A DNA stretch of 59,283 nucleotides from Bacilli bacterium (GTDB lineage: Bacteria > Bacillota_I > Bacilli_A > RF39 > UBA660), in assembly GCA_028693035.1 (NCBI GenBank), contig JAQUWE010000007.1:1-59283 (forward strand), read 5' to 3'. Positions 8,568 to 13,060 of this stretch are shown piece after piece (position 1 is the stretch's first letter; each line of letters opens with the position of its first letter). Position numbers and translations under genes: made by a program. The notes beneath the pieces were generated by a model. It worked only from the letters and a program-made list of their open reading frames with translations, was not told the DNA's origin and searched no databases.

Positions 8568-9134
8568 TTACTTCTTTCTGAGTCCAAAAACTTTAGCGTT
8601 TGCTTCTGCTTGCTCATATAAATTTAAAAATTCAACAAAATGAGCATTTGCTTCTGCTTGCTCATATAAGTTTAAAAATCCAGCAAAATTAGCATTTGGA
8701 TGATAGAGTAAAGTTTGGCAACGTTTATAATACTCTTCAGCATCCTCAGGAAGTTCTATTTCCCTACTTCTTTTAGGTGTAACAGATTGAATGATATCTA
8801 AAAGATCTTCACTATTAGACTTTGTATATGTCAAACCTATAAAGTTCATTTTTACAGGAGCTGTAATCATTTTTGTGAAATCAGGACCCAGTTCCTGATA
8901 GAACCATTTTATCTCTTCTTGGTCTTTTAAAATAGCTGTAATCACCTGTACCAATTCAAAATTTGTTTGTATAAGTTTTTCTATGGCAGAATTTGTAATA
9001 CTATCAAAAAGAAGGATTTTTTCTGCAGAATGAAAACAACTATCAATCAAATTTGCTCTTACATTTTGAAGAACAAACTGATGTTTTGCTTCCAAACTAA
9101 ATTCAATTAGGTAACCATCATTAATTGCTATCAT
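8568..9134 (-). CDS. Unrecognised protein, paralogue of the next gene, with internal tandem duplication
   Basis: I do not recognise a family. The protein (188 aa) begins MIAINDGYLIEFSLE, matching the start of the upstream neighbour (MIAIDNGHLIEFDLE). Both also share an IELPEDxExxYxRC block near residue 135. There is no signal peptide or membrane segment; the composition suggests a helical cytosolic protein. Near the C-terminus a 16-residue unit containing FLNLYEQAEANA occurs twice in tandem; the paralogue has one copy. AGGAGGTG lies six nt before the ATG at 9134; the GTG at 9143 is inside that Shine-Dalgarno. Spacing to the paralogue is short, so the two are probably cotranscribed. Confidence 0.7.
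   Translation of the reverse strand: MIAINDGYLIEFSLEAKHQFVLQNVRANLIDSCFHSAEKILLFDSITNSAIEKLIQTNFELVQVITAILKDQEEIKWFYQELGPDFTKMITAPVKMNFIGLTYTKSNSEDLLDIIQSVTPKRSREIELPEDAEEYYKRCQTLLYHPNANFAGFLNLYEQAEANAHFVEFLNLYEQAEANAKVFGLRKK
8596..8691. repeat. Two tandem 48-bp units inside a coding sequence
   Basis: Unit one covers 8596-8643 and unit two 8644-8691, with 43 of 48 bases identical. The repeat keeps the reading frame and encodes two 16-residue units ending LYEQAEA. The paralogous gene upstream carries a single diverged unit, so the duplication arose after the paralogues split. Confidence 0.9.
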
Positions 9135-9212
9135 ACCTTTCACCTCCTATTAAAAATATCAATAATTCTGCTTTATATTATCAATATACCACTTTTTTAA
9201 TACAAATAATAA

Positions 9213-9758
9213 CTATCTTTTTTTACTGAATTTTAACATTTTTGCATTATATTTTCCTTCATTATAAAGAGTAGAAAATTTTTCGAAAAGGATTTCTTCA
9301 CTCTTGCTACTACATTTTTTTTCATGTCTTGTATGTTCACAGCGAAGATACAAATCTTCTGTATCCTCAGGAAGCTCTATCGTTTTCTTTATATGGGGTT
9401 CTAATGCAGATGGTATTTCAGCACCTTCTACGTGCGCTACCGTTGCATGCAAATACCCTAGATGGTTGCGACTAATCCATTCATCAAATACTTCTGTAAA
9501 ATCTTCCCTAAGAAAAGCATACTCTGCTTTCAATTGTTCTTGATCTTCCAAAAGACCTGTGATCAAACAAACCAATTTCATGATTTCCACTAATTCTGTT
9601 TCATTCGCACTATTTATTTTTCCTATAGGAACTGTTCTGTTTTCTTTTTCTAAAATCAAATACTTCTTTATTAAAGCATTGCGTTCTTTCGATAAAATAG
9701 AAGCATCTGTTACTTCTAAATCAAATTCGATTAGATGTCCATTATCAATTGCTATCAT
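9213..9758 (-). CDS. Unrecognised protein, paralogue of the downstream gene
   Basis: No family recognised. The protein (181 aa) shares with its downstream paralogue the N-terminal MIAIxxGxLIEFxLE signature, an LVxxITxLLxDQEx region near residue 75, the acidic ELPEDTEDLYLRC block and a C-terminal FSTLYNEGKYNAK segment. It looks cytosolic and helical. The ATG at 9758 is preferred to an upstream GTG because AGAGGTG serves as its Shine-Dalgarno. A TATAAT box lies about 25 nt upstream. It is transcribed divergently from sigG, so a role linked to sporulation is conceivable but unproven. Confidence 0.7.
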   Translation of the reverse strand: MIAIDNGHLIEFDLEVTDASILSKERNALIKKYLILEKENRTVPIGKINSANETELVEIMKLVCLITGLLEDQEQLKAEYAFLREDFTEVFDEWISRNHLGYLHATVAHVEGAEIPSALEPHIKKTIELPEDTEDLYLRCEHTRHEKKCSSKSEEILFEKFSTLYNEGKYNAKMLKFSKKR

Positions 9759-9856
9759 GCTTTTTTTCACCTCTTAAATTGGTATTATAACACTTTTTAG
9801 GAAAATTTGTATAAAAATATGAAATTTTATCTTAATAAAAAGGAAAGGAGAATTAT

Positions 9857-10634: not shown

Positions 10635-10662
10635 ACAGATGCTTTATAAACATCTGTTTTTT
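10635..10662 (+). terminator. Terminator between convergent sigG and oapA
   Basis: ACAGATG pairs with CATCTGT around a nine-nt loop, followed by TTTTTT on the plus strand. The minus strand gives a weaker T-run, so it may serve both genes. Confidence 0.8.
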
Positions 10663-11261
10663 CATTTTACTTTATAAATATAAGATACCATTTTAGAAAA
10701 ACGATACAAAATAAGATTGGCTTTATTGATAGCAATGCTTTTACCAATGGCCTTTCCACCTATAGTAAGAGAAGCAATAATAGCCGTAACAAATAAAGTT
10801 ATAAACAAACTATTTATTTTTAAAATTTGGGACAATGACAACGCAATCGTAACACCTGCTGATCCTGAAATAACCCCACAAATATCTCCAATTACATCAT
10901 TGCAAAAACTAGATACTTTATCTGCATTCTTTTTCCATTTTACTGCTATATTAGCACCCTTTACTTTTCGTGCATTCATAGAATGAAACACTTTTTCTTC
11001 GGAAGCTGTTACTGCAACACCTATCATATCAAATAAAACACCAATAAAAATGAAAAAAAATACCAAAACAATGCCTATATAGAAAGGGGCTTTAGGAAGG
11101 GTTGTTTCTGAAACAAAGGACAATCCAAAAGAAATTACAAAAGCAGTAATAAATATGGTTATTATCCATTTTATATCAGCCTTTTCTTTTTTTTCTCTTC
11201 TATTTTGAATCTTTAAATTTCTTAGTTCCCCTTTTATCTTACTTTTTTCTTCTCTATTCAT
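10662..11261 (-). CDS. oapA: OLE-associated membrane protein OapA
   Basis: OapA is the integral membrane partner of the large OLE RNA and brings the RNA to the cytoplasmic membrane. The protein (199 aa) has a basic N-terminal tail (1-30) and about four hydrophobic segments (roughly 31-50, 61-84, 127-147, 150-170). Between them lies the highly characteristic polar block: VTASEEKVFHSMNARKVKGA at about 84-103 and NADKVSSFCNDVIGDICG at about 112-129, with acidic residues D114, D122 and D126. I recognise this block as the OapA/DUF21-like signature. The gene starts 28 nt downstream of the 3' end of the OLE RNA, the arrangement known from other bacteria. AAGAGGACAAGT precedes the ATG. Confidence 0.9.
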   Translation of the reverse strand: MNREEKSKIKGELRNLKIQNRREKKEKADIKWIITIFITAFVISFGLSFVSETTLPKAPFYIGIVLVFFFIFIGVLFDMIGVAVTASEEKVFHSMNARKVKGANIAVKWKKNADKVSSFCNDVIGDICGVISGSAGVTIALSLSQILKINSLFITLFVTAIIASLTIGGKAIGKSIAINKANLILYRFSKMVSYIYKVK

Positions 11262-11288
11262 ACTTGTCCTCTTTTAATCATAAAAAAA

Positions 11289-11883
11289 ATTAATGGCGAC
11301 CTATTATGGTAAACTTTGAGTCTTAGGTCAAGTAGGGTTTCCCTAACTTCTACATTCCGTTACCAGAATTGCGGTTCCCCATTAAAGAAGTTAATATACA
11401 TAATGTATATGACTTGATTGCCACTTAGTACCCACTGCAATCCCATACAGGTGCACACTCTAGGAGATTTCCTCACCAATCTTTATTCCTAATTCTTTGT
11501 TGCAAGTACCATTTCAAAGTGCAGTTACTACTCTTTTGGCCAAAAAAGTAGAACCGTTCACTTATCCCAAAATACTCACGCAAGACAAGCTACACTACTC
11601 ATAGCTATTCGCCACATAGTAGGTTTAATCCTAGGTCGTACAAAGTCCATCATCAAAAACTACTTTTCTTTGCGTATAGGCTTTGCACAAATATAGGTCT
11701 CCACGAGAATTGGGTCGGTTGCCGTATGCCATTACGATCGCCCAAAGCTCTATCTTCCAGCACTCACCCCAAACTGGGCGTAAGAAGCAAGCACCAAAAG
11801 CTTCATAGATGTGCTCTTTAACGGATTTTTAGCCCCGTCTTCGTAATAAAGGTCTTGACTAGAATAATGTGCCATTAATTTAC
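11289..11883 (-). ncRNA. ole: OLE RNA (ornate large extremophilic RNA)
   Basis: A stretch of about 595 nt without coding potential but dense in structure. The ends pair through GCCATTAAT (11871-11879) and its complement (11289-11297) to form a 9-bp closing helix. Internal hairpins, in window coordinates, include 11345-11392 (AACTTC/GAAGTT arms), 11394-11410 (perfect ATATACAT palindrome), 11417-11441 (ATTGC/GCAAT) and 11528-11551 (CTACT/AGTAG). Near the 5' end ACGG-CCGT, GAAGC-GCTTC and CGCCCA-TGGGCG stems follow one another. Size, structure density and position directly upstream of oapA identify OLE RNA; no sequence-profile search was possible. OLE-OapA is linked in studied species to tolerance of cold, alcohol and Mg2+ stress. 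A T8 run follows the 3' strand of the closing helix. Confidence 0.88.
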
Positions 11884-11889
11884 GTAGAA

Positions 11890-11918
11890 ATCATAACATA
11901 CATTCGCTATTCTGTCAA
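11890..11918 (-). promoter_or_regulatory. Sigma-A promoter of OLE RNA
   Basis: Minus-strand TTGACA (11913-11918), exactly 17 nt, then TATGAT (11890-11895). The predicted start falls at about 11882-11884, three to five nt before the closing helix. This is one of the best promoter matches in the window, implying abundant expression independent of the neighbours. Confidence 0.85.
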
Positions 11919-11956: not shown

Positions 11957-12002
11957 AAAAAAAAGAAAATGTATGGAGAATATAACAATTCTTTATACAT
12001 TT
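11957..12002 (-). terminator. Terminator after the acyltransferase gene
   Basis: Minus-strand AAATGTAT pairs with ATACATTT around a loop of about 20 nt and is followed by C and a T8 run. It overlaps the stop codon of the upstream gene and insulates the OLE promoter. Confidence 0.55.
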
Positions 12003-13060
12003 CCACTATTTTTTAATTCTTTAAGTCCATTTAAAATACATCTTTTTATAAAGACAACAATATAGCATAGAATAAAAATACCTGGCACAAATAAGAACAA
12101 GTAAGGAAAGGCCTTTGTTGCTGTGCCTAATTGTTTGGCAAATTTTGTGTAGAAATAAAAATCGGCAAGACAAGAAATCAAATAAACATCAAAAGATAAT
12201 TTAGAGAAATCAGTCACCATAATACGGAGTGGTTTCCATTTTATATGCATTTGATAAAAGAATATAAAAATAAGGGTTGCTAACATAACTGTTGGTAAGG
12301 CATTGTACCCATCAAATAGAAAGGGATCAAAAACTTTACCTTGGCTATAAAAGAAACTGCATACTGTTTCAAAAAAGAGAAGAAAGACAATAGAAAGAGC
12401 CCCTACTACTTTAGATAAATGGATTTGGTACTCTTTAATATAAGAACCTATAAAGTAATACAAAATTGGATACAACATAGTCCACCAAGAAGGTACCAAA
12501 TTCAAATGCACATTTCCTATCGTGATGGCATTAAAAATAGAAGGAAGTCCTACCAATGCTGCAAGTGAAATCAATAGAATTTGTTTGTTTCTTTTCGTAT
12601 CTATGTTTTTATACAATATATTAAGAAAAGGAATCAGTAGAAAAAGACCTATATACATATTTACATACCATGCATAATCAATTGTAGTAAAATTAAAGAT
12701 GCCCATAAGTAAAGACCCATAAGAACGATCTGTATGAAAAATAAATTTTTTCACTAAAATTGCCAAAATAGAAATAAGTAAATAAGAACTTAAAATAGGC
12801 ACTATACTATGATAATGTTCTTTATTTGGTTTCTTATTGCCTTTTAAATATCTAGTTAAAATAATAAACAACGGTACACAAGTATAAAATAACCAACGCA
12901 TTCCTGTCATTATAAACATAGACAAACCTTCCATTTTTGCTTCATAAAAATGATTATACAGAAAAAAGTGAACCCCTATTACAAACAAAACAGCTAAAAA
13001 ACGAATAATATCAAGTCCATTTGATCTTGTCACAACTTTTTGTATTTCTTTATTCTTCAT
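11993..13060 (-). CDS. Acyltransferase 3 family integral membrane protein
   Basis: Multi-pass membrane O-acyltransferase (OafA/WecH family) expected to acetylate or succinylate a cell-surface glycan. The N-terminus GLDIIRFLAVLFVIGVHF carries the family histidine at the end of the first membrane helix. About ten hydrophobic segments follow over 355 aa. It is the last gene of a minus-strand cluster with two glycosyltransferase halves and a GT4 enzyme, so it probably decorates the glycan that cluster makes. Gap to the preceding gene is 12 nt. Acceptor and acyl donor cannot be inferred. Confidence 0.85.
   Translation of the reverse strand: MKNKEIQKVVTRSNGLDIIRFLAVLFVIGVHFFLYNHFYEAKMEGLSMFIMTGMRWLFYTCVPLFIILTRYLKGNKKPNKEHYHSIVPILSSYLLISILAILVKKFIFHTDRSYGSLLMGIFNFTTIDYAWYVNMYIGLFLLIPFLNILYKNIDTKRNKQILLISLAALVGLPSIFNAITIGNVHLNLVPSWWTMLYPILYYFIGSYIKEYQIHLSKVVGALSIVFLLFFETVCSFFYSQGKVFDPFLFDGYNALPTVMLATLIFIFFYQMHIKWKPLRIMVTDFSKLSFDVYLISCLADFYFYTKFAKQLGTATKAFPYLFLFVPGIFILCYIVVFIKRCILNGLKELKNSGNV

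Follow-up and report, generated by a model that had tools for sequence, protein, structure and literature searches.

The ole-oapA locus and its promoter

The window (the whole stretch of DNA analysed here, 59,283 nucleotides) carries a 731-nt gap between oapA (10662–11261, minus strand) and the next gene (11993–13060, minus strand). The first-pass annotation had placed an OLE RNA in this gap. Searching with the Rfam OLE covariance model (RF01071), we find that the placement was right. The one Rfam match inside the gap, at 11891–11277 on the minus strand, reaches 389.5 bits (E 6.2e-111), far above the gathering score of 50 bits, and covers model positions 1–616 of 616. The sequence is a complete OLE RNA, present as a single copy in the assembly (1.36 Mb, 36 contigs). 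OLE is among the largest structured bacterial RNAs.

A near-consensus sigma-A promoter (11890..11918, minus strand) adjoins the RNA. It consists of TTGACA at 11918–11913, a 17-nt spacer and TATGAT at 11895–11890, with a TG before the -10 element (extended -10 TGTTATGAT). Transcription is predicted to start at about 11884–11882, next to helix P1. A 1.6-kb scan gave 7 promoter-like sites against 7.3 in shuffles, so that a single site is weak evidence when taken alone; such sites are common in DNA this AT-rich, and therefore position and conservation must decide. Among the 115 OLE loci of the order with enough upstream sequence, 106 (~92%) show a site scoring 10/12 or better whose end falls within -3 to +10 nt of the OLE start, compared with 8.5% of shuffled upstream sequences. 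This conserved position across related loci is strong evidence that the site is a promoter. The promoter noticed at first pass just before the closing helix thus stands, and gains an extended -10 and conservation at related loci.

The oapA gene (199 aa) has a GAGGA ribosome-binding site and begins only 15 nt beyond the OLE match, too close for a separate oapA promoter. No terminator-like hairpin was found within the ole-oapA unit. The unit is complete here: a housekeeping promoter close to consensus precedes a full-length OLE RNA, and oapA starts 15 nt on. The OLE RNA of the window has its own promoter, whereas the cluster of Halalkalibacterium halodurans is transcribed as a polycistron.

The 199-aa protein is a genuine OapA, as had been proposed, because it combines a DxxxD motif, a sub-threshold CNNM similarity and co-occurrence with OLE. 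The motif (D122–D126) is invariant in 14 aligned relatives. The CNNM match (PF01595, residues 66–198) scores 20.5 bits where the cut-off is 28.4; the CNNM similarity of OapA has been published as weak (PMC11332333), and an OapA is expected to rank below MpfA. MpfA/CorC/CorB-type CNNM transporters (PF01595 with CBS and CorC_HlyC) share this weak match, but OapA has no CBS or CorC_HlyC domains and carries the DxxxD motif, which CNNM domains reportedly lack. OapA is expected to have four transmembrane helices; an AlphaFold2 model built from 3 sequences only (mean pLDDT 61), too uncertain for a fold comparison, gives four long helices. The named relatives (~60% OapA identity) come from 'uncultured Bacilli bacterium' assemblies. 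Elsewhere in the window, two adjacent genes (8568–9143 and 9213–9770) encode proteins of 191 and 185 aa that look like paralogues and match nothing in Pfam or NCBIfam.

The host is of a spore-former type, as first suggested, having Spo0A (Spo0A_C, E 1.8e-40) and a SigG-like sigma factor (367 bits, cut-off 372). SigG as a conserved OLE neighbour was rejected, since it lies near OLE in only 1 of 119 loci. We also rejected the idea that OLE tracks sporulation within the order, as 7 of the 10 Spo0A-negative genomes have OLE (p 0.74).

Architecture of the OLE RNA and its dimer-contact loops

We transferred the Rfam structure to the window OLE and aligned it with the OLE RNAs of the order (119 in all). 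Nearly all pairs are formed in every helix of the window OLE. Across the 81 full-length relatives, two-sided changes occur in all helices except an invariant CUAG/CUAG stem, and controls with shuffled partners give lower values wherever a helix varies. The end-to-end closing helix described at first pass is real. In the transferred pairing this P1 closure has 10 bp, AAUUAAUGGC/GCCAUUAAUU, joining 11880–11871 with 11297–11288 (minus strand), and spans 593 nt (11288..11880).

The remaining elements lie on the same minus strand. The 5' strand of P3/P3.1 (11843..11858) pairs with 11492–11475 in 4 + 7 bp flanking a small internal loop, giving 11 bp, in keeping with the ~12 bp expected of this stem. 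Class medians for this stem are 12–14 bp compared with 6–7 for shuffled strands, about twofold in every size class. That the stem crosses the membrane is a proposal of the literature only (PMC12265935). The P4a hairpin (11820..11839) carries the A-rich loop CUAAAAAU, the published OapA site and A-A dimer contact (PMC12286853). The 5' strand of the J4a/5 k-turn, GCACAUCUAUGAAG, lies at 11801..11814, with its J6/7 partner GUGGAGAC at 11704–11697. It is followed by P5 (11754..11800, loop GCCCA) and P6 (11705..11750, loop AAUGGCAU), the latter retaining the conserved GGG...CCC pairs. P7 and P8 occupy 11595..11697, and P9 (11493..11586) ends in the palindromic GGCC loop L9.3 (UUGGCCAA). Domain 2 (about P11–P14, 11298..11453), whose helices were named by comparison with published work, includes the P13 loop UGGUAACG at 11365–11358, the published OapB site.

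The published dimer contacts L4, L5, L6 and L9.3 are retained in the window OLE. L5 reads CGCCCAG in 73 of 81 full-length relatives, and the L6 sequence recurs in 66 of 81. L9.3, the kissing-loop dimer contact in published OLE (PMC12286853), has a self-complementary tetranucleotide in 70 of 80 full-length sequences, where chance would give ~6%. These palindromes are GGCC (38), AGCU (18), GUAC (13) and GCGC (1). The cryo-EM paper lists GGCC, GAUC and AGCU (PMC12286853); GUAC is a further palindrome.

Compared with the OLE RNAs of H. halodurans and Clostridium (RF01071; PMC12286853, PMC12265935), the window OLE has the P1 closure, L4, L5/L6, the GGCC L9.3, the k-turn strands, the P13 loop and the directly downstream oapA in common. 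However, its P7 apex exceeds the model by 24 nt, its P12 loop is changed, and a short hairpin ahead of domain 2 (model ~424–435) is lost. Also among the closest published systems are OLE variants 1 and 2 (TANB77, RF39; PMC11332333), likewise from uncultured small-genome lineages without OapB and OapC. P7 and P8, missing in variant 2 (the RF39 type), are present in the window OLE (11697–11595), and the P13 loop, often missing in variant 1, is retained; the variant bit-score cut-offs of PMC11332333 use another model, and the class label does not transfer directly to the window OLE.

The pair of the window belongs to a known class and is not a new discovery. The 2,822 Bacillota OLEs published by Fernando and Breaker (2024, PMC11332333) include those of RF39 and TANB77 gut lineages without OapB and OapC, and the host lineage resembles their RF39 clade in being uncultured, small in genome and devoid of both proteins. 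The suggestion that OLE here widens the ecological range therefore does not hold, as the OLEs of these reduced-genome gut lineages were already published. When the class (395 genomes) and the phylum (295) were sampled evenly, OLE appeared, among the matches listed, only in the window's own family, and the samples thus gave no outgroup OLEs.

Protein partners in the window's genome and its relatives

The first-pass annotation had also proposed a full OLE complex. Searching the rest of the genome for OapB and OapC, we found neither. For OapC (L7Ae/YbxF), no L7Ae match cleared the cut-off in any of the 193 genomes sampled from the order, the window's own included; the B. subtilis control was positive. 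For OapB (KOW, YbzG), the only KOW proteins in the window's genome are L24 and NusG, and 31 relatives have at most two KOW matches each.

In Bacillus, oapB (ybzG) sits between map and infA. These two genes are 4 nt apart in the window's genome, so there is no oapB at its usual slot. At locus L034:1709-1714 map and infA are directly adjacent, and the KOW gene usual there in Bacillus is missing.

It could be argued that the complete H. halodurans-type complex (OLE, OapA, OapB and OapC) is present and that two proteins merely went undetected. Of the 81 full-length relatives, 74 retain the k-turn strand and 77 the P13 loop (GGUAAC), as if both were still read by proteins. Moreover, the window's genome was assembled from a metagenome (93% complete, 6% contaminated), so that a partner may have escaped notice, as may an OapB or OapC that has diverged too far to be detected. 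However, the zero count for L7Ae stands beside a positive control, the 4-nt map-infA gap has no space for oapB, and no KOW protein is left over in the genome once L24 and NusG are accounted for. On these grounds we rejected the full OapA-B-C complex and consider its presence very unlikely. The k-turn is described as forming without protein by cryo-EM (PMC12286853), and its persistence where the H. halodurans binders are missing agrees with this. Since OapB and OapC are both essential in H. halodurans, that OLE functions without them is an assumption; we infer that OLE in this lineage is independent of both.

The ribosomal protein bS21 is present in the window's genome (PF01165, 34.1 bits). An anti-Shine-Dalgarno mimic has been described in P6 of H. 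halodurans OLE (PMC12054373). This mimic, CCUCC, is absent in the window OLE, and only 1 of 81 full-length relatives has it. The exact pattern of the host 16S 3' end (anti-Shine-Dalgarno) was not found in the assembly.

Co-inheritance, size classes and a proposed mode of action

OLE and OapA are retained or lost together within this one order, which is new here. Of 193 genomes, 118 have both, 73 have neither, 1 has OLE only and 1 has OapA only (Fisher p 2e-51; the count of OapA leaves out two long proteins, in G152 and G180, that matched only weakly). Downstream of OLE, oapA follows within 1.5 kb in 112 of 119 loci. Some loci carry further genes between the two. Three relatives from the same genus (L051, L074, L077) have a gene for a ~190-aa coiled-coil-like protein there, and L056, L063 and L067 encode small acidic, apparently single-pass membrane proteins.

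The co-inheritance, and the 15-nt spacing that leaves oapA no promoter of its own, would fit a mainly cis-acting OLE RNA that controls oapA as a long riboswitch-like 5' leader and is not a free RNA. However, four genomes (G137, G139, G064, G165) have other genes between OLE and oapA, or oapA kilobases off or on another contig. The dimer loops are conserved, the unit holds no terminator-like hairpin, and H. halodurans OLE has been published as an abundant, membrane-bound, trans-acting RNA. We consider a mainly cis-acting role unlikely.

Performing a length comparison of the 119 OLE RNAs, we find that 81 have at least 555 nt, four have 534–543 nt, 32 have 479–519 nt and two have ~380 nt. The 32 OLEs of 479–519 nt do not have P7, P8 and the P9 apex. 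The two shortest (L132:1501-1878 and L133:1501-1881; 134–139 bits) are 90.5% identical, come from two genera and lie directly before oapA. They retain P1–P4, the P9 base and domain 2, and have no P5, P6, P7 or P8; with P5 and P6, the k-turn, the bS21 site and L5/L6 are gone as well. We did not find this ~380-nt form described in the OLE literature, and it is shorter than the published variants.

Shorter forms, the missing OapB and OapC, and the 73 of 193 genomes without both OLE and OapA might suggest a decaying remnant that sheds its partners before being lost. For the window OLE we consider this very unlikely. The RNA scores 389.5 bits over the full model with near-complete pairing, has a strong promoter and an intact OapA, and is 88.9% identical to a copy from the same genus; covariation is upheld across the order.

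A published idea holds that MpfA replaces the OLE complex. We detected no MpfA-type CorC_HlyC proteins in the 193 genomes of the order, including the 73 without OLE and OapA. It follows that MpfA has not replaced OLE in these 73 genomes, which are thus exceptions to an MpfA-for-OLE replacement.

The reading that we prefer, and consider highly probable, is that ole-oapA is driven by one promoter and forms a dimeric membrane ribonucleoprotein with OapA, working without OapB and OapC. The promoter would give an abundant ~600-nt OLE RNA, and read-through would give some OapA. The RNA would pair with a second copy through the L4, L5/L6 and L9 loops and bind OapA at P4a/P3. Judging from the work on H. 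halodurans and Clostridium, membrane localisation, dimerisation in the cell and a stress function may be expected for the window OLE, too: the particle would sit at or through the membrane and tune Mg2+ handling and stress adaptation, as in H. halodurans. In the absence of OapB and OapC, the k-turn and the P13 loop would serve the RNA fold or other partners, and bS21 may still join the complex.

The size series of 615, ~490 and ~380 nt marks the dispensable parts of the OLE RNA. We tentatively propose, as something slightly short of an even proposition, that the OLE particle of this order has become a machine of RNA plus OapA that needs neither OapB nor OapC, that P1–P4, the P3 stem, a short P9 and domain 2 form the minimal core carrying the essential function, and that the k-turn and P13 loop are retained for RNA architecture and not for proteins. 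With OLE and OapA retained or lost jointly, and OapB and OapC apparently missing throughout, this order sets the indispensable pair apart from the accessory proteins. The window's OLE is chiefly of use as one case within this order, from which the dispensable pieces of the complex can be read.
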